This document shows, one piece after another, positions 51,761-58,851 of a DNA stretch of 64,000 bases. Position numbers and translations under genes: made by a program. The DNA is from Bacteroidales bacterium (GTDB taxonomy: Bacteria; Bacteroidota; Bacteroidia; Bacteroidales; Muribaculaceae): contig SUXG01000008.1 in NCBI GenBank assembly GCA_015061085.1, forward strand, positions 1 through 64,000, given 5' to 3'. Positions within the stretch are counted from its first letter, which is position 1. Each line of letters opens with the position of its first letter. The notes beneath the pieces were generated by a model. It was not told the DNA's origin. It saw nothing but the letters and a program-made list of their open reading frames with translations, and searched no databases.

Positions 51761-51791
51761 TTTGGAGAATGAAAAAAAATGTCTAACTTTG
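51761..51791 (+). promoter_or_regulatory. Promoter of the first cobalamin riboswitch
   Basis: TTTG (51761-51764), 19 nt, TAACTTTG (51784-51791). Transcription would begin at about 51798, exactly where the riboswitch P1 stem starts. Confidence 0.8.
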
Positions 51792-51797
51792 CAACGC

Positions 51798-51943
51798 AAT
51801 CGGTATCAAGGGAATCAGGTGAGAATCCTGAACAGAGCCGCTGCTGTAAGCCCACAAGAGGCTGAATGATTTCACTGTCACAACTCCTACGACGGGAAGG
51901 AACATTCGCTTAAAGCCGGGATAAGTCAGAAAACCTGCCGATT
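51798..51943 (+). promoter_or_regulatory. Cobalamin riboswitch 1 (btuB leader)
   Basis: P1 pairs AATCGG (51798-51803) with CCGATT (51938-51943). Conserved elements in order: GGGAATCAGGTGAGAATCC, the B12 box-associated AGAGCCGCTGCTGTAAG, GGGAAGGAA, and AAGCCGGGATAAGTCAG with AAACCTGCC. Binding of a cobamide should repress the downstream B12 uptake operon. Confidence 0.93.
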
Positions 51944-51950
51944 ACACATA

Positions 51951-51986
51951 TTTTGTTGAAGCTTTCGAGCATTAGAGCTAACAAAA
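51951..51986 (+). promoter_or_regulatory. Hairpin covering the btuB start region
   Basis: TTTTGTT (51951-51957) pairs with AACAAAA (51980-51986) and AGCT (51960-51963) with AGCT (51976-51979), ending 4 bases before the ATG. There is no T-run, so the riboswitch probably blocks translation initiation. Confidence 0.65.
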
Positions 51987-51990
51987 ACAG

Positions 51991-54054
51991 ATGACAGACA
52001 TTCTAAAGACTAAAGCATTGCTGCTATTGGCAATTGCTATCCCTTTCCTATCGTGGGGAGCGACTGTCGAAATGATTGCGCCGGACACGATGATGGTTGA
52101 CCTTGATGAATTTGAGGTCGTCGGTGTTCAACGTCCATACGCGGAGGTGATTCCATCGCAAAGACTATCGGGCGATCAACTTGAGTCGCTCAATTCGCAT
52201 AGTGTCGCTGACGCTGTGCGCTACTTCTCAGGGGTACAAATCAAGGACTATGGTGGTGTCGGCGGCGTGAAAACTGTCGATATTCGCAGCATGGGCACCA
52301 ACCACATGGGCGTCTTCTACGATGGTATTCAGCTCGGCAATGCTCAGAATGGTCAGATCGACCTCGGCAAATTTTCGCTCGATAACATAGAGGAAATCTC
52401 GATGTACAATGGTCAGAAGAGTGAAATCTTCCAGTCAGCCAAGGACTTCGGCTCTGCCGGTACGATCTATCTTCGCACACGCTATCCACGTTTCCCATCG
52501 GGCAAACGCTACAACCTCAACCTCACATTCCGTACCGGCTCGTTCGGTCTGCTCAATCCGTCGGTGCGTCTGGAGTATCGACTCAGTGAGCGTGTCAGCG
52601 CGTCGGTCAATGCCGAATATACAAATGCCCATGGACGCTACAAATTTCGCTATCGCAAGGTGTTCTCCGACGGCACTTTGGCATGGGACACCACAGCAGT
52701 GCGTCAGAATGGCGACATCGAGGCACTCCGACTTGAAGCCGGCGTCTTTGGCTATGTCAATGACGGTAAGTGGAATGTGAAGGCCTATTACTATGACTCC
52801 GAGAAGGGTATTCCGGGCGCAATAGTCAATAATGTGTGGAAGAATTCGCAGCGCCAGTGGGATAGAAACTTCTTTGCGCAAGGCAGCTATCAACAGCGAC
52901 TCTCGGAGCGTTACGAACTAATGGTCAACGCCAAGTATGCACGCGACTATATGCGTTATCTCAACCCGGACACGACGCTGATGTATCTTGATAATCAGTT
53001 TTGGCAAGATGAGCTGTATATCTCGACAGCGAATAAATACACAATCTTACGCGACTGGGACGTCAACCTCTCTGTCGATTATCAGTGGAACACGCTCGAC
53101 GCTACGCTGACCAACTTCGCTTGCCCGACGCGTCACTCCTTGCTTGCCGCTCTTGCGACAGCTTATCGCTGGCAGCGACTCAAGGCTCAGGCAAGTATCC
53201 TCGGCAAATTTGTATTCGATCACTCCAAGATAATCAGTGGTAGCGACTATCTCGGCCACCGCACCAACAAGTTCTCAAAGTTCACACCGGCTGTCTTCGT
53301 CTCCTATCAGCCGATAGAGAACAGGGACTTCAATCTGCGTGCGTTCTATAAGCGCATCTTCCGAATGCCGACATTCAATGACCTCTATTACACAGACATC
53401 GGCAATGCCGACCTGAAGCCGGAGTATGCAACGCAATACAACGTAGGGCTTCAGCACCGTTGGAATTTCGATCGCACAATCTTCAAGAGTTTCAACGTGA
53501 CAGCCGATGCTTACTACAACGAAGTGACCGATAAGATTATCGCTGTGCCAAAGGGTACGGGCCAATATCGCTGGATGATGATGAACATCGGCGAGGTGCA
53601 TATCACGGGCGTCGATGTGACGGCTCAGCTCTCAATGCTCCTGCCTTACGACATTGCCATTAACGGTCAACTCAACTACACCTATCAGACGGCGCAAGAC
53701 TACTCCGATCCGACGGATTGTCTTGATGAGGCCGGCACTTATAAGGGTCAGATTGCCTACATACCATGGCATAGCGGCTCGACTATACTCAACGCTGCAT
53801 GGCGAGGCATCGGTCTGAACTACAGCTTCATCTATGTCGGCGAGCGTTATCACAACTCGTCGAACATTCCTGCCAATTACGAGCAACCGTGGTACACCCA
53901 TGACCTTTCGGCTTCCTATGCTTTCAAGGTGGGCAAAGTGGGGCTTAAGGCCACGCTTGAGGTCAATAATCTGCTCAATCAGCAATACGAAGTGATAATG
54001 AACTACCCGATGCCGGGTCGTAACTATAAACTAATTCTAAAGGTTGATATATGA
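51991..54054 (+). CDS. btuB: BtuB-like TonB-dependent cobalamin receptor
   Basis: 687 aa. Signal peptide (residues ~8-24), plug domain (~45-150: QRLSGDQLESLNSHSVADAV, GVKTVDIRSMGTNHMGVFYD) and a 22-strand-type barrel ending MNYPMPGRNYKLILKVDI. It lacks the carboxypeptidase-like domain of SusC proteins. The cobalamin riboswitch directly upstream identifies the substrate class. Imports cobamides handed over by surface lipoproteins. The stop overlaps the BtuG-like gene (ATGA). Appears more GC-rich than the susCD genes to its left. Confidence 0.92.
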   Translation: MTDILKTKALLLLAIAIPFLSWGATVEMIAPDTMMVDLDEFEVVGVQRPYAEVIPSQRLSGDQLESLNSHSVADAVRYFSGVQIKDYGGVGGVKTVDIRSMGTNHMGVFYDGIQLGNAQNGQIDLGKFSLDNIEEISMYNGQKSEIFQSAKDFGSAGTIYLRTRYPRFPSGKRYNLNLTFRTGSFGLLNPSVRLEYRLSERVSASVNAEYTNAHGRYKFRYRKVFSDGTLAWDTTAVRQNGDIEALRLEAGVFGYVNDGKWNVKAYYYDSEKGIPGAIVNNVWKNSQRQWDRNFFAQGSYQQRLSERYELMVNAKYARDYMRYLNPDTTLMYLDNQFWQDELYISTANKYTILRDWDVNLSVDYQWNTLDATLTNFACPTRHSLLAALATAYRWQRLKAQASILGKFVFDHSKIISGSDYLGHRTNKFSKFTPAVFVSYQPIENRDFNLRAFYKRIFRMPTFNDLYYTDIGNADLKPEYATQYNVGLQHRWNFDRTIFKSFNVTADAYYNEVTDKIIAVPKGTGQYRWMMMNIGEVHITGVDVTAQLSMLLPYDIAINGQLNYTYQTAQDYSDPTDCLDEAGTYKGQIAYIPWHSGSTILNAAWRGIGLNYSFIYVGERYHNSSNIPANYEQPWYTHDLSASYAFKVGKVGLKATLEVNNLLNQQYEVIMNYPMPGRNYKLILKVDI

Positions 54055-55205
54055 TGAAATCGACTATCAAATACGCGCTGATGCTCATCGCTGCTGTCGC
54101 ACTCCTCGGCTCATGTCGTGGTGAAGATGTGATTTTTATCCCTGAGGAGGTTGAAGTCAGCACGCCTGAGTACACAGCAATCAAAGGTTTCTACCTGCTC
54201 AATGAGGGCAATATGGGTAGCAATAAGGCGACACTCGACTACTATGACTATGTCTCAGGTGTATATACTCGCAATATCTATGGCAATGCCAATCCCTCGG
54301 TGCCTAAAGAGATGGGCGACGTGGGCAATGACTTGAAGATATATGGCTCGAAGCTTTATGCAGTCATCAACTGCTCCAACAAGATAGAGGTGATGGATGT
54401 CGCTACGACAAAGCGTATCGGTCAGATAGACATCCCCAACTGTCGTTACATTCGCTTCCATGAAGGTTATGCCTATGTCACATCCTATGCCGGCCCGGTG
54501 GAGATACGCCCCGACTACACGCAGAAGGGATTTGTGGCTAAGATAGACACTGCCACACTGCAGGAGGTCGATCGCTGCATTGTCGGTTTTCAACCCGATG
54601 AGCTGGAAATTGTCGATGGCAAGATATATGTAGCCAACTCGGGCGGATATATGGTGCCACGCTACGAAAATACGATGTCGGTTATCGATATTGCGACATT
54701 TGCAGAGATAGAGCGGGTCACTATCGACATTAATCTTCATCGCTTGCGTTGTGACCGACATGGACAACTCTGGGTGTCGTCGCGTGGTGACTACTACGAT
54801 GAAAACTCGAAGCTGTATTGCTACGACACTCGCAAGAAGCGCATCACTGCCAAGCTCGATGTGCCGGTGTCGAATATGTGTCTTGACGGCGACTCACTCT
54901 ATGTCGTCAGCGCACAGTGGAGCTATGTGACAATGAGCAATGAGATAACCAATTGTATAATAGACATCAACAGTCGCGAGGTGGTCTGCGACAATTTCAT
55001 CAAGGACGGCACCGATGCCGAAATCCGTATTCCTTACGGCGTGATGATCAATCCGATCACCAAAGACATCTATGTGACAGACGCCAAAAACTATGTCAAT
55101 CCCGGGTATCTGCATTGTTACGGTGGTGACGGAATACGCAAATGGAGCGTTCGCACAGGCGACATACCGGCACACTTCGTCTTTGTCGGTGATGAGAAAC
55201 AATAA
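54051..55205 (+). CDS. BtuG-like beta-propeller surface lipoprotein
   Basis: 384 aa. Lipobox LLGSC (Cys ~22) followed by RGED, a surface-export-like acidic pattern. Then a YncE/DUF5074-type beta-propeller of about seven blades (KGFYLLNEGNMGSNKATLDYY, GNDLKIYGSKLYAVINCSNKIEVMD, VGFQPDELEIVDGKIYVANSGG, PYGVMINPITKDIYVTDAKNY). BtuG proteins of Bacteroides have this fold, bind cobalamin with very high affinity and form a lid on BtuB. Operon position after btuB under a cobalamin riboswitch supports the same role. Confidence 0.88.
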   Translation: MMKSTIKYALMLIAAVALLGSCRGEDVIFIPEEVEVSTPEYTAIKGFYLLNEGNMGSNKATLDYYDYVSGVYTRNIYGNANPSVPKEMGDVGNDLKIYGSKLYAVINCSNKIEVMDVATTKRIGQIDIPNCRYIRFHEGYAYVTSYAGPVEIRPDYTQKGFVAKIDTATLQEVDRCIVGFQPDELEIVDGKIYVANSGGYMVPRYENTMSVIDIATFAEIERVTIDINLHRLRCDRHGQLWVSSRGDYYDENSKLYCYDTRKKRITAKLDVPVSNMCLDGDSLYVVSAQWSYVTMSNEITNCIIDINSREVVCDNFIKDGTDAEIRIPYGVMINPITKDIYVTDAKNYVNPGYLHCYGGDGIRKWSVRTGDIPAHFVFVGDEKQ

Positions 55206-55224: not shown

Positions 55225-56376
55225 ATGAAAAGAATTTTTACACTATTTCTTGCAGGCGTTTCTCTCTGTGCTACGGCTCAGAATTCGCCTTATATCAGCA
55301 AGGTCTATGACTTTTTGCCTGCACCGGGACAGTTTGTCAACGAATTGCCGGAGTATATGGACGGCGATAGCCATGAGGCAATACTCGCTAAGGTTGAGGA
55401 GCAAATCTGTGGCGATAAGAATCCCGGCATGATCAGTCTTGGCGCATTCGGTGGCTATGTGGTGTTTGGCTTCGACCACCCGGTAGCAAACGTAGAGGGT
55501 GCTTACGACTTCAAGATATATGCCAACGCATTCATGGCGGCCGGAAGTTCTGCAGGCGGTAGTTGCGAGCCGGGTATCGTGATGGTCTCTGTCGATGCCA
55601 ATGGCAACGGCTTGGCTGATGACGAGTGGTACGAACTCGCCGGTAGCGACTATGGCAAGGAAACGACTATCAAGAACTATAGTATCACTTATTATAAACC
55701 TGATGCCGACAAGACTCCGACGGCTGATGGAATGATAACCGATACGACCTACATCCGTTGGACATCTTCGGAGGGCGAAGAGGGCTATGTGATGAAAAAC
55801 AGTTTTCATAACCAATCGTATTGGCCAGAATGGTATGAGGGCGAGACAATGGAGTTCATCGGCACAAAATTGACTGATAACGCATTTGATCAAAGTGGCA
55901 ACGGTTCTTACTATGTGCTTACGCGTTTGGATTGGGGCTATGCCGATAATTTAGCCAATGACATCGACGAGGGCTTCAAAATCGATTGGGCTGTCGATGC
56001 GCAAGGCAATTCTAAACACCTGACTCACATTGACTTTGTGAAGGTATATACGGCTGTCAATCAGTATTGTGGTTGGATAGGAGAGACTTCGACTGAAATT
56101 TGCGGTGCTGAGGACCTTCACCCAGATGCAGAGGTGGTCGGTGTCGATGCCGTTGATGCCGACGATGATGTATTGACGCTTATGGCATCAAATGCTTACG
56201 GCGTTGCCTTACGAAATGGTGGAGAAGCTATGGAAGCTCAGATTTATTCGGTCGGTGGTGGCATAGTGAAGCAGACAGTGCTTGCTTCGGGCGATAACCT
56301 CATCGATGTCGCATCGCTTCCGAAGGGTGTCTATATCATCAGAGCCGGTCGCAAAGCGATTAAGTTTGCGAAATAA
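55225..56376 (+). CDS. Secreted cell-surface protein of the B12 operon, 383 aa
   Basis: Third gene of the btuB operon, 19 bases after btuG. Signal peptide (MKRIFTLFLAGVSLCATA). The body carries a conserved acidic, Gly-rich core (FDHPVANVEGAYDFKIYANAF, GIVMVSVDANGNGLADDEWYELAGSDY). DANGNGLADDEW looks like a Ca2+-binding loop. The C-terminus ends as a type IX-like sorting tail (SLPKGVYIIRAGRKAIKFAK). Homologues are frequent next to Bacteroidetes btuB genes, as I recall, but no biochemical role is established to my knowledge. Possibly a cobamide-binding or carrier protein. Confidence 0.8.
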   Translation: MKRIFTLFLAGVSLCATAQNSPYISKVYDFLPAPGQFVNELPEYMDGDSHEAILAKVEEQICGDKNPGMISLGAFGGYVVFGFDHPVANVEGAYDFKIYANAFMAAGSSAGGSCEPGIVMVSVDANGNGLADDEWYELAGSDYGKETTIKNYSITYYKPDADKTPTADGMITDTTYIRWTSSEGEEGYVMKNSFHNQSYWPEWYEGETMEFIGTKLTDNAFDQSGNGSYYVLTRLDWGYADNLANDIDEGFKIDWAVDAQGNSKHLTHIDFVKVYTAVNQYCGWIGETSTEICGAEDLHPDAEVVGVDAVDADDDVLTLMASNAYGVALRNGGEAMEAQIYSVGGGIVKQTVLASGDNLIDVASLPKGVYIIRAGRKAIKFAK

Positions 56377-56450
56377 GCAGTCATCTGCATAGACAGACTG
56401 CGCGGTCGGCACAAGAGAGTGTCAATCGATAAAAACTACATATTGGGATA

Positions 56451-56636
56451 GCAGAAGGCTCGGCTTAACGTCGATTAAAAGGGAACGGGGTGAGAACCCC
56501 CGGCAGACCCGCTGCTGTAATTTCCGTGCCCATCAGGGCGATGCTTGATAAATGTCACTGAATCAATAGATTTCGGGAAGGCATCAAGCGTTATCTCTAC
56601 TCAAGAGATGGAATAAGCCAGAAGACCTGCCTTTGC
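56451..56636 (+). promoter_or_regulatory. Cobalamin riboswitch 2
   Basis: P1 pairs GCAGAAGGC (56451-56459) with GCCTTTGC (56629-56636) with one bulge. Core elements: GGGAACGGGGTGAGAACCCC, ACCCGCTGCTGTAATTTCC, TTTCGGGAAGGC, and AATAAGCCAGAAGACCTGCC. A variable arm makes it about 40 nt longer than riboswitch 1. No consensus promoter is obvious, so transcription may also come from the btuB operon. Confidence 0.93.
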
Positions 56637-56684
56637 TTGCCTTAAGGATATGCTTACGAGGACTTGAGCATTTGGCAATTTTTT
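56637..56684 (+). terminator. Terminator-like hairpin after riboswitch 2
   Basis: TTGCC (56637-56641) with GGCAA (56674-56678) and, inside, ATGCT (56650-56654) with AGCAT (56667-56671), followed by six T. It directly abuts the riboswitch P1 and could be the transcriptional expression platform. Confidence 0.65.
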
Positions 56685-56725
56685 AGGTGACGATGAGGCC
56701 ATCGGTGCATCCTGTCGATGACTAT

Positions 56726-56789
56726 AGTGTAGTCGTTTGACTGAGGGAGTATAGAACGCACAGTCGGCAGTGTAGTCGGCGACTACACT
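56726..56789 (+). promoter_or_regulatory. Alternative-pairing leader element
   Basis: AGTGTAGTCG occurs twice (56726-56735 and 56769-56778), and one complement CGACTACACT follows (56780-56789). The complement can pair with either copy, and the two foldings exclude each other: a long-range 10-bp stem, or a tight hairpin with a 3-nt loop (56769-56777 with 56781-56789). It lies between the riboswitch and the gene it controls. Confidence 0.5.
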
Positions 56790-56872
56790 CGCATCGCAGA
56801 GTCAACTTTTTCAAATTCTTGTAGGCAAGTGATTGATAATCATTTTGTTAACCATTTAATAAATTACAAGAA

Positions 56873-58699
56873 ATGAAAAAGTTTTTTTATTGTGCGCTTT
56901 TAGCGCTTGCGACAGTCTTCACAGGCTGTTATGATGACGATGACTTGTGGAATAGAATCGATGATCTCACAGGTCGAGTGGAAACAATCGAAGAGATCCT
57001 CCAAGGTCTCAATACGGAGATTACCGACATCAAGACCGTGGTTTCGGCACTCAACAAGGGTGCGGTGATTACTGCAGTCGAAGAAACTCCACAAGGTTAT
57101 CGCTTGACATTCAGTGATGGCAAGGTGATAGAACTTCACCATGGCGTCAATGGCATCGACGGCGAGAATGCCCCGGTGATCGGTGTAAAGGAAGATGTCG
57201 ATGGTATCTACTACTGGATAATCACAGTCAATGGTGTGACCGAATGGCTTCTTGACAGCAACGGCAATAAACTTCGTGTTACCGGCAAAGATGGTGAGAA
57301 AGGCGATAAGGGCGACAAGGGTGATCAAGGCGAAACCGGTCCAATGGGTCCTACAGGTCCTGCCGGCCAAGACGGTGAAAAAGGCGATAAGGGCGATAAG
57401 GGTGACAAGGGTGATCAAGGCGAAACCGGTCCAATGGGTCCTACAGGTCCTGCCGGTCAAGATGGTCAAGACGGTGTCACTCCTGTGATCGGCGTAGATG
57501 CTGAAGGCTATTGGACAATCGACACAGGCAACGGTCCTGAACGCATCGTCGATGCTAACGGTCACTATGTCAGAGCGATAGGTATCAGCGGTGACTCTTT
57601 CTTTACAAATGTAGTTGTCGGCGAAGACGAGGTGATCTTCTATCTCGCGAGTGGCGAAACATTCTCAGTCTATCGCGTTGACAATTTCGGTATCATGATT
57701 GACACAACCGATGTGGAAGTGGCTCAAGGCACAACCAAAGAATTTGCAATGACTTTGACAAAGGTCAGCACTGTCTTTGTGGCATCAGTGACAGAGGATT
57801 GGGACGCACTTGTCAAGGGTGATGTGCTTTATGTCACTGCTCCAAGCGAAATTAATGACGAAAATATCGTGGGTGAAATCAATATCATTGCAGCCAACAA
57901 GCGTGGCGATTGTCGTGCGTTCACTCTTGAGTGCGTAGCAGTGTCACCAATGAGAATCCTTACATTCGAAGATGCCGATGCACGCTTCACTCCTTACTCG
58001 CTTGACTATGCCGGCGTTACAATAAGTAAATGGAGCGATCTTATTGATAGCGAGCAGTATAATGGTCCGTTGACCTACGACTTTAGTGGCGGGACATACT
58101 ATTGGTATGATGAAGGCAACACCGAATTGTTCCACTCGTTTGTGACTCCGTATTGGGGTGGTGGTCATGCCATATCAAACTATGTTATAGAAAATTATGA
58201 AACACTCCCAGATGGTCACAATGGATGGTATGAATTGCAGTTCAGCAACCCGATAGGTGGTCACAACGGTTCAAGCAATTTCGCCGTACATAATGGCTAC
58301 AAAGATTTCTTCAATTCAGGAATATATGATGCTCAACTTCAAGGATTTGAATTTGCAGACGGCGTGGCTCGCGTCGTTGACCACATGTATGTGACCAACA
58401 TCAATTATGTGCTTAACTCTTTGACATACGGCGACGGATTTAATACGCCTGCAACCGAATCTACCTATCTGAAGGTGATTGCTTACGGCTTTAATGGCGA
58501 AGAATCTACAGGACAGGCTGAGATTTATCTCTGCAAAGATGGTCAGTTGATTACTACTTGGGAGAAATTCGACCTTTCTTCGTTGGGTAAGGTGACCAAG
58601 GTAGTCTTCAACTTTGAAGCGAGTGAAGACCAAAGTGGCAGCTATGGTCTTAACTGCCCTGCTTATTTCGCTTACGACGATGTCGCTGTCGTGATGTAG
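56873..58699 (+). CDS. Collagen-like surface lipoprotein under B12 control, 608 aa
   Basis: Lipobox TGC (Cys19) followed by YDDDD, a strong surface-export signal. Residues ~25-62 form a coiled coil ([19 protein letters not shown]), then a DUF4988-like domain to ~137. Residues ~138-201 are Gly-X-Y repeats ([20 protein letters not shown] twice). A second DUF4988-like unit ([15 protein letters not shown]) and an Ig-like domain (~260-355) follow. The C-terminal ~240 residues ([15 protein letters not shown] to [10 protein letters not shown]) resemble DUF4465 lectin-like beta-sandwiches. The coiled coil plus collagen triple helix suggest a trimeric stalk presenting three C-terminal domains. Cobamide binding is suggested by the riboswitch only. 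Confidence 0.85.
57288..57475 (+). repeat. 90-bp repeat encoding the collagen-like segment
   Basis: Two near-identical copies with a 90-base period (for example GTGATCAAGGCGAAACCGGT at 57321 and 57411). They encode about 21 uninterrupted Gly-X-Y triplets rich in GDK, GPM and GPT. The near-identity at DNA level implies recent duplication and possible length variation. Confidence 0.9.
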
Positions 58700-58813
58700 G
58701 AAATACGGATACTTCAATAGTTTTTCTTTGTATGGTATAGATTTGTTTACTAACCTTTTATTTTAGTTTATGCGAATATGAAACAGACACAGAATTAGAA
58801 ACGTTCAAAAGTG

Positions 58814-58851
58814 AATATTGTCCGGCAAGCGATTGTCGGGCAATATTTTTT
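58814..58851 (+). terminator. Terminator after the collagen-like gene
   Basis: AATATTGTCCGGCAA (58814-58828) pairs with TTGTCGGGCAATATT (58833-58847) with two G-T pairs, then a T-run. Confidence 0.9.

Follow-up and report, generated by a model that had tools for sequence, protein, structure and literature searches.

The window, by which we mean the whole stretch of 64,000 nucleotides that was analysed, carries cobalamin riboswitches and candidate uptake genes in the order riboswitch 1 - btuB - btuG - 55225 - riboswitch 2 - stalk gene (Table 1). The BtuB-like receptor scored 99.4 bits against TIGR01779, under the cut-off of 599.7 for that model. The last gene encodes a stalked DUF4465 lipoprotein, referred to below as the window protein. 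It stands directly next to riboswitch 2, with 225 nt between the end of the aptamer and the ATG. The leader in this interval is a candidate expression platform: the region 56640-56875 folds at -68 kcal/mol (z -2.93), and 0 of 200 shuffles equalled it. A simple pattern scan found no terminator on the + strand of the leader, so a switching element within it is presumptive. Excerpts of PMC8941943 and PMC12751083 describe how the riboswitches of loci of this kind relieve repression when B12 runs short.

Table 1. Features of the stalk gene and its surroundings, in positions of the window.
Feature	Position	Strand	Remarks
Cobalamin riboswitch 1, 5' of btuB	51784..51956	+	RF00174, 77.2 bits
BtuB-like TonB-dependent receptor	51991..54054	+	PF00593 and PF07715
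DUF5074 beta-propeller lipoprotein, BtuG-like	54051..55205	+	PF16819, 58.5 bits
Secreted protein that travels with uptake genes	55225..56376	+	tblastn match in 64/80 loci (best 80 of 266)
Cobalamin riboswitch aptamer 2	56438..56648	+	RF00174, 91.1 bits vs cut-off 31.5
Leader, aptamer 2 to ATG; candidate expression platform, strong stems	56649..56872	+	
Stalked DUF4465 lipoprotein (window protein), 608 aa	56873..58699	+	Open frame
Lipoprotein signal peptide to Cys19, then Y-D-D-D-D	56873..56929	+	C-x-(D/E)2 type export signal
DUF4988, first part	56945..57298	+	PF16378 positions 1-111
Coiled coil, residues 29-60; trimer motif RVETIE at residues 35-40	56957..57052	+	
Collagen-like tract, 22 unbroken Gly-X-Y triplets, residues 138-203	57284..57481	+	Inserted between the two DUF4988 parts
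Tandem DNA repeat beneath the Gly-X-Y tract, 90 bp, 1.8 copies, 96% matches	57302..57466	+	
DUF4988, second part	57461..57664	+	PF16378 positions 106-180
DUF4988-to-head region, no Pfam match	57665..57952	+	Alignments
Head, residues 361-608	57953..58696	+	Kinship changes at about residue 360
DUF4465 profile match, residues 427-604	58151..58684	+	PF14717, 126.5 bits vs cut-off 25
Tyr512, equivalent of BtuJ1 Tyr146 (DE loop)	58406..58408	+	Alignments
N594-C-P-A-Y598, HI-loop motif, B12-binding in BtuJ1	58652..58666	+	Alignments
Terminator-like hairpin 3' of the stalk gene, 16 pairs then T-rich	58813..58848	+	Pattern match only

The preliminary description had proposed a surface-targeted lipoprotein with a coiled coil and a stalk of about 21 Gly-X-Y triplets. 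The targeting signal (Cys19, then YDDDD) is seen in the translation, and its acidic +3/+4 residues agree with the C-S-(D/E)2-type export signal given in the excerpted text of PMC6222051. A pattern similar to this combination of lipobox Cys and acidic export signal is found in 58 of the 68 long and short relatives described below (best 80 of 266). The coiled coil is real by its heptad pattern, all ten a/d positions of residues 29-60 being I, L or V, and it includes an R-hxxhE trimer motif as defined in PMC3653964 (in excerpt). The collagen-like tract is also present, with 22 triplets instead of about 21. It scores 35.4 bits against Pfam Collagen PF01391 (cut-off 27.2) and interrupts a DUF4988 match of 161.2 bits (cut-off 30). 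The X position of its triplets is Pro or acidic in 17 of 22, Lys occupies Y in 7, and a KGD/KGE junction follows seven of the 22 triplets; such junctions are of the stabilising type in collagen-like triple helices. A chance origin of Gly-X-Y was rejected, since runs in the C-terminal 250 aa of the 68 relatives (best 80 of 266) did not exceed 4 triplets. The region between DUF4988 and the head (57665..57952) is probably an Ig-like spacer. The stem profile also hit fibritin (E 0.008-0.009), but these were weak, generic coiled-coil matches and were not counted as evidence.

The head belongs by profile to DUF4465, which is the BtuJ family (PF14717, IPR027828; excerpts of PMC12751083 and PMC13398666), and B12 binding has been published for eight divergent DUF4465 members (PMC13398666, excerpt). 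In BtuJ1, B12 is hydrogen-bonded by Tyr146, Asn241, Thr242 and Tyr245 (PMC12751083, excerpt). Besides Tyr512, the window protein retains Asn241 and Tyr245 as N594 and Y598, while Thr242 is replaced by Cys595. All 49 rows (the window protein and the 48 long forms of the best 80 of 266) have Y512, P596 and Y598 without exception. A profile of 38 heads (A2) matched six distinct DUF4465 chain sequences in the PDB at E 0.01, with a best E of 5e-24. No BtuH or other-family chain was among these matches, although the BtuH2 entry may be absent from the searched set. Membership of the head in BtuH was rejected because the profile matches DUF4465 chains alone. The first interpretation had combined a cobalamin riboswitch directly before the gene, a surface-lipoprotein signal, a collagen-like stalk and a DUF4465-like C-terminus with a BtuH-type head; all but the last hold, and the head is BtuJ-type DUF4465. 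The profile match places the head in a family of which other members are measured B12 binders.

Relatives were collected in two surveys. Among 397 same-family genomes searched, 138 match residues 230-608 at E 1e-10; 17 near full-length fusions were taken, window included, and G161 and G090 (shorter) and G077 (split) were left out. The second survey, of named genomes, confirmed 266 relatives. We retained the best 80, ranked by similarity to the window protein: 48 long forms (530 aa or more), 20 short forms (370-529) and 12 shorter or truncated ones. The 17 set and the 80 set are not independent because the surveys overlap (for example, G287 is L133, and other genomes are shared). At G077:C14:229582-231145 (L077), stem and head matches lie in two frames of 406 and 184 aa, and the fusion looks split. 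The locus L195 (JAMPHR010000004.1), recorded as Paenibacillus sp., groups with Bacteroidota heads and stems, and the name is probably wrong.

DUF4988 and DUF4465 match all 49 long rows (window and 48 of the best 80 of 266), whereas Pfam Collagen matches 8 of the 49. Within the first 300 aa of the 48 long forms (best 80 of 266), a run of at least 6 triplets occurs in 30 and of at least 4 in 35, with fewer in 13. Runs of 4 triplets or more, with lengths of 5 to 26, occur in eight of the 17 same-family fusions; the other nine have none. The 20 short forms (best 80 of 266) match DUF4988 in 18 cases, Collagen in 16 and DUF4465 in 20, and 18 of them contain 6-20 triplets. Two short forms, L160 and L187, have other stems; in L187:5251-6774 the DUF4465 head sits on an N-terminus without any Pfam match, which may be fimbrillin-like. 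Among relatives, the tract thus varies in length at one position, from no triplets up to 26, and a 95%-identical protein has 19 triplets against the 22 of the window protein. Since 13 of the 48 long forms (best 80 of 266) lack a run of at least 4 triplets, the collagen is dispensable, and we rejected the idea that it is the conserved core. The constant part of the stem is the coiled coil.

The R-hxxhE motif is found in register in all 17 same-family fusions and in all 48 long forms (best 80 of 266), against a rate of 0.0096 per segment in shuffled segments; as the proteins are related, these occurrences are not independent events. In the 48 long forms (best 80 of 266), I, L, M, V or F fills 90% of 480 a/d cells compared with 8% of 1,104 others. 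Arg35 and Glu40 do not vary across the 49 rows (window and 48 of the best 80 of 266), in which mean column identity is 45%. By contrast, the motif occurs in only 1 of the 20 short forms (best 80 of 266), which counts against a trimeric stem. For the window protein itself, the motif supports a predicted trimerisation domain.

Cobalamin control accompanies the fusion. RF00174 lies upstream of 17 of 17 fusions, window included: in 14 it immediately precedes the gene (gap 139-235 nt), and in 3 a single frame intervenes. Of the 80 loci (best 80 of 266), 75 have a B12-box pattern in the 4,500 nt before the gene, 58 of them within 350 nt, and the five loci without it offer just 150-937 nt of upstream DNA. 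On the opposite strand and in the 4.5 kb downstream of the 80 loci (best 80 of 266), the pattern matched once, in L140, where Rfam identifies a second true riboswitch. Rfam also confirmed RF00174 in 11 of 11 loci picked from the best 80 of 266. At 12 DUF4988 control loci outside the fusion set, which have no head match, no riboswitch was found in the 612-1,443 nt upstream; five of the control frames run off the locus. Beside one control gene, a FopS-family sRNA is present at L069:2843-2911 (RF04319, 75.8 bits).

The gene neighbourhood is also shared. When the window proteins were searched by tblastn against the 80 loci (best 80 of 266), homologues of the 55225 gene were found in 64, of btuG in 57 and of btuB in 55, and the order stalk gene - 55225 homologue - btuG - btuB in 47. 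The 55225-56376 protein is a promising candidate for an additional uptake component. The order seen in the window (btuB - btuG - 55225 - riboswitch - stalk gene) recurs in 1 of the 80 loci (best 80 of 266), L133. In the window, the stalk gene has its own riboswitch and stands outside a btuB operon of the usual order, a point that we list against our best reading.

DUF4465 also occurs in other settings. At least 48 matches fall in open frames of 1,990-2,346 aa, including L094:2069-8278 (G122:C20). In one such giant that was scanned, CUB, BNR_assoc_N and beta-helix matches were found, with DUF4465 near the C-terminus. A cobalamin riboswitch lies upstream of 14 of 14 further giant genes and also at L094. 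A second DUF4465 lipoprotein, of 265 aa and without a stalk, is encoded in L131 (G000:C46, match G000:C46:15194-15742), and the 18 kb surrounding this gene gave no riboswitch.

The two halves of the window protein differ in their nearest relatives. The head is 67-80% identical to Bacteroidaceae and Alistipes heads (among them L134, L136, L139, L155 and L172) and 41-45% identical to those of L145, L148 and L169. The stem shows 34-35% identity to L134, L136 and L139, and 46-50% to L145, L148 and L169. In 30-residue blocks, the identity switches between residues 331-360 and 361-390, which is the stem/head joint. Head and stem trees of 31 shared rows, with Gly-X-Y runs removed from the stems, place the window protein in different groups. 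With the head data, a constraint that grouped the stem partners was 70.2 log units worse (p-AU 1.7e-5); with the stem data, a constraint that grouped the head partners was 115.1 log units worse (p-AU 5.1e-5). These p-values are conditional, as we defined the groups once identities and trees were known. An assembly artefact was rejected, since the protein recurs, at 94-95% identity, in another record, L133 (JAFYNZ010000037.1). By these comparisons the window protein is a chimera whose stem and head have different nearest relatives, with the switch at residue ~360. Such an exchange, at a single joint, points to trading of vitamin-binding heads like cassettes.

Each half has known counterparts. 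With BtuJ1/BtuJ2 and other DUF4465 lipoproteins, the window protein shares the head, the ligand tyrosines, the lipoprotein signal, the cobalamin riboswitch and the uptake-locus setting; it differs in the coiled coil, DUF4988 and Gly-X-Y stem before the head and in the HI-loop Thr to Cys change. The DUF4988 module recurs in the GH98 entries 9h6f/9h6g/9h6h (stem profile E 2.7e-18), whose chains have another head and no Gly-X-Y insert at that place; no paper on these entries was found. The same module forms the N-terminus of BT3328-type hyaluronate lyase: the BT_3328 model matches residues 1-140 of the window protein. Membership in that family was rejected, as NF058554 gave 106.6 bits against a cut-off of 1100 and matched the N-terminal part only. 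Since DUF4988 stems elsewhere carry leucine-rich-repeat, CotH-kinase and GH98 heads, the stem is a general display module; unlike the stalk gene, DUF4988 genes with other heads had no riboswitch at 12 loci (612-1,443 nt upstream). Scl1/Scl2 and Lcl resemble the window protein in an unbroken Gly-X-Y tract rich in KGD/KGE and in surface display, which is predicted for the window protein, but the latter has a lipid anchor, a putative vitamin-binding head and riboswitch control, and NCBIfam Scl-type models match it weakly, far under the cut-offs of those families. BtuH2 (BT1956) is likewise a surface B12-binding lipoprotein from a riboswitch locus with its head on an extended PKD/Ig-like stem, but its head is of a different family. 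In the open-licence literature, the word collagen was not found in the full texts searched on BtuJ/DUF4465-type systems, no paper with both 'collagen' and 'DUF4465' was found, and wider searches gave nothing relevant.

The head is thus ordinary and the stem general, and their combination is unusual and consistent. What is special is that a general stem is paired with a B12 head under a B12 riboswitch, together with a variable collagen insert. The in-register motif, the riboswitch linkage, the conserved gene order, the variation in tract length and the chimera are new.

We consider it probable, judging from sequence, that the window protein is a B12-repressed, probably trimeric stalk of variable length that presents BtuJ-type heads for uptake through BtuBG. 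Under cobamide shortage, the riboswitch would permit expression of the stalk gene, and the lipoprotein would be exported to the cell surface. Three chains may join through a parallel coiled coil beside the lipid anchor, continued by a collagen-like triple helix. From the general rise per residue of such helices, 22 triplets would span about 19 nm. Three BtuJ-type DUF4465 heads at the end of the stalk could then capture cobamide and hand it to BtuG/BtuB. A more elaborate form of this model, to which we give slightly better than even chances, is a modular, trimeric, three-headed 'fishing rod', in which the coiled coil would nucleate a repeat-expanding collagen helix and the head would be a cassette swapped between lineages at a constant joint, with a single riboswitch controlling the whole.

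It is also possible, if less likely, that the protein acts mainly as a vesicle-borne trap like BtuJ1/BtuJ2, in which outer-membrane vesicles return the cobamide and the stalk sets the distance of the head. Excerpts of PMC12751083 report that cobamide uptake mediated by BEV needs BtuJ1 and BtuJ2 in B. thetaiotaomicron, and excerpts of PMC6222051 that lipoproteins with the export signal are enriched in vesicles. This possibility is, however, compatible with our main reading, not opposed to it.

We regard as doubtful that the Gly-X-Y tract is a slippage-prone, unstructured spacer. The protein would then be monomeric, or oligomeric through its coiled coil, its head would bind B12 as an ordinary BtuJ does, and a triple helix would be irrelevant. 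The tract's range from none to 26 triplets at one place, its change from 22 to 19 triplets in a 95%-identical protein, its position on the 90-bp DNA repeat and the tract-free homologues that retain riboswitch and head would all fit such a spacer. However, noise would break the phase of the tract, whereas its 22 triplets are unbroken and its X (Pro or acidic, 17/22) and Y (Lys, 7) positions are biased; moreover, the invariant parallel-trimer motif in the coiled coil beneath would be the right nucleus for a triple helix. An adhesin-type display stem whose head has drifted to another ligand (glycan or host protein) is very improbable: DUF4988 stems do bear CotH-kinase and leucine-rich-repeat heads and a GH98 enzyme of known structure, and collagen-like surface proteins of other bacteria are adhesins with NCBIfam Scl models that match here weakly, but all 17 fusion genes have the riboswitch, none was found at 12 other DUF4988 genes (612-1,443 nt upstream), btuG and btuB adjoin, and the ligand tyrosines are invariant in 49 of 49 rows (window and 48 of the best 80 of 266).

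Competition for B12 shapes gut Bacteroidota. The stalk reading bears on how surface lipoproteins pass the polysaccharide and deliver the vitamin to BtuBG. No other nutrient scavenger on a collagen stalk was found in the open-licence literature, and the 'fishing rod', if true, would be the first collagen-stalk nutrient scavenger known to us. A B12-inducible collagen-like trimer could also find practical application as a display scaffold. With head and riboswitch in common but stems that are long or short and with or without collagen, the family provides a natural experiment on reach and multivalency.
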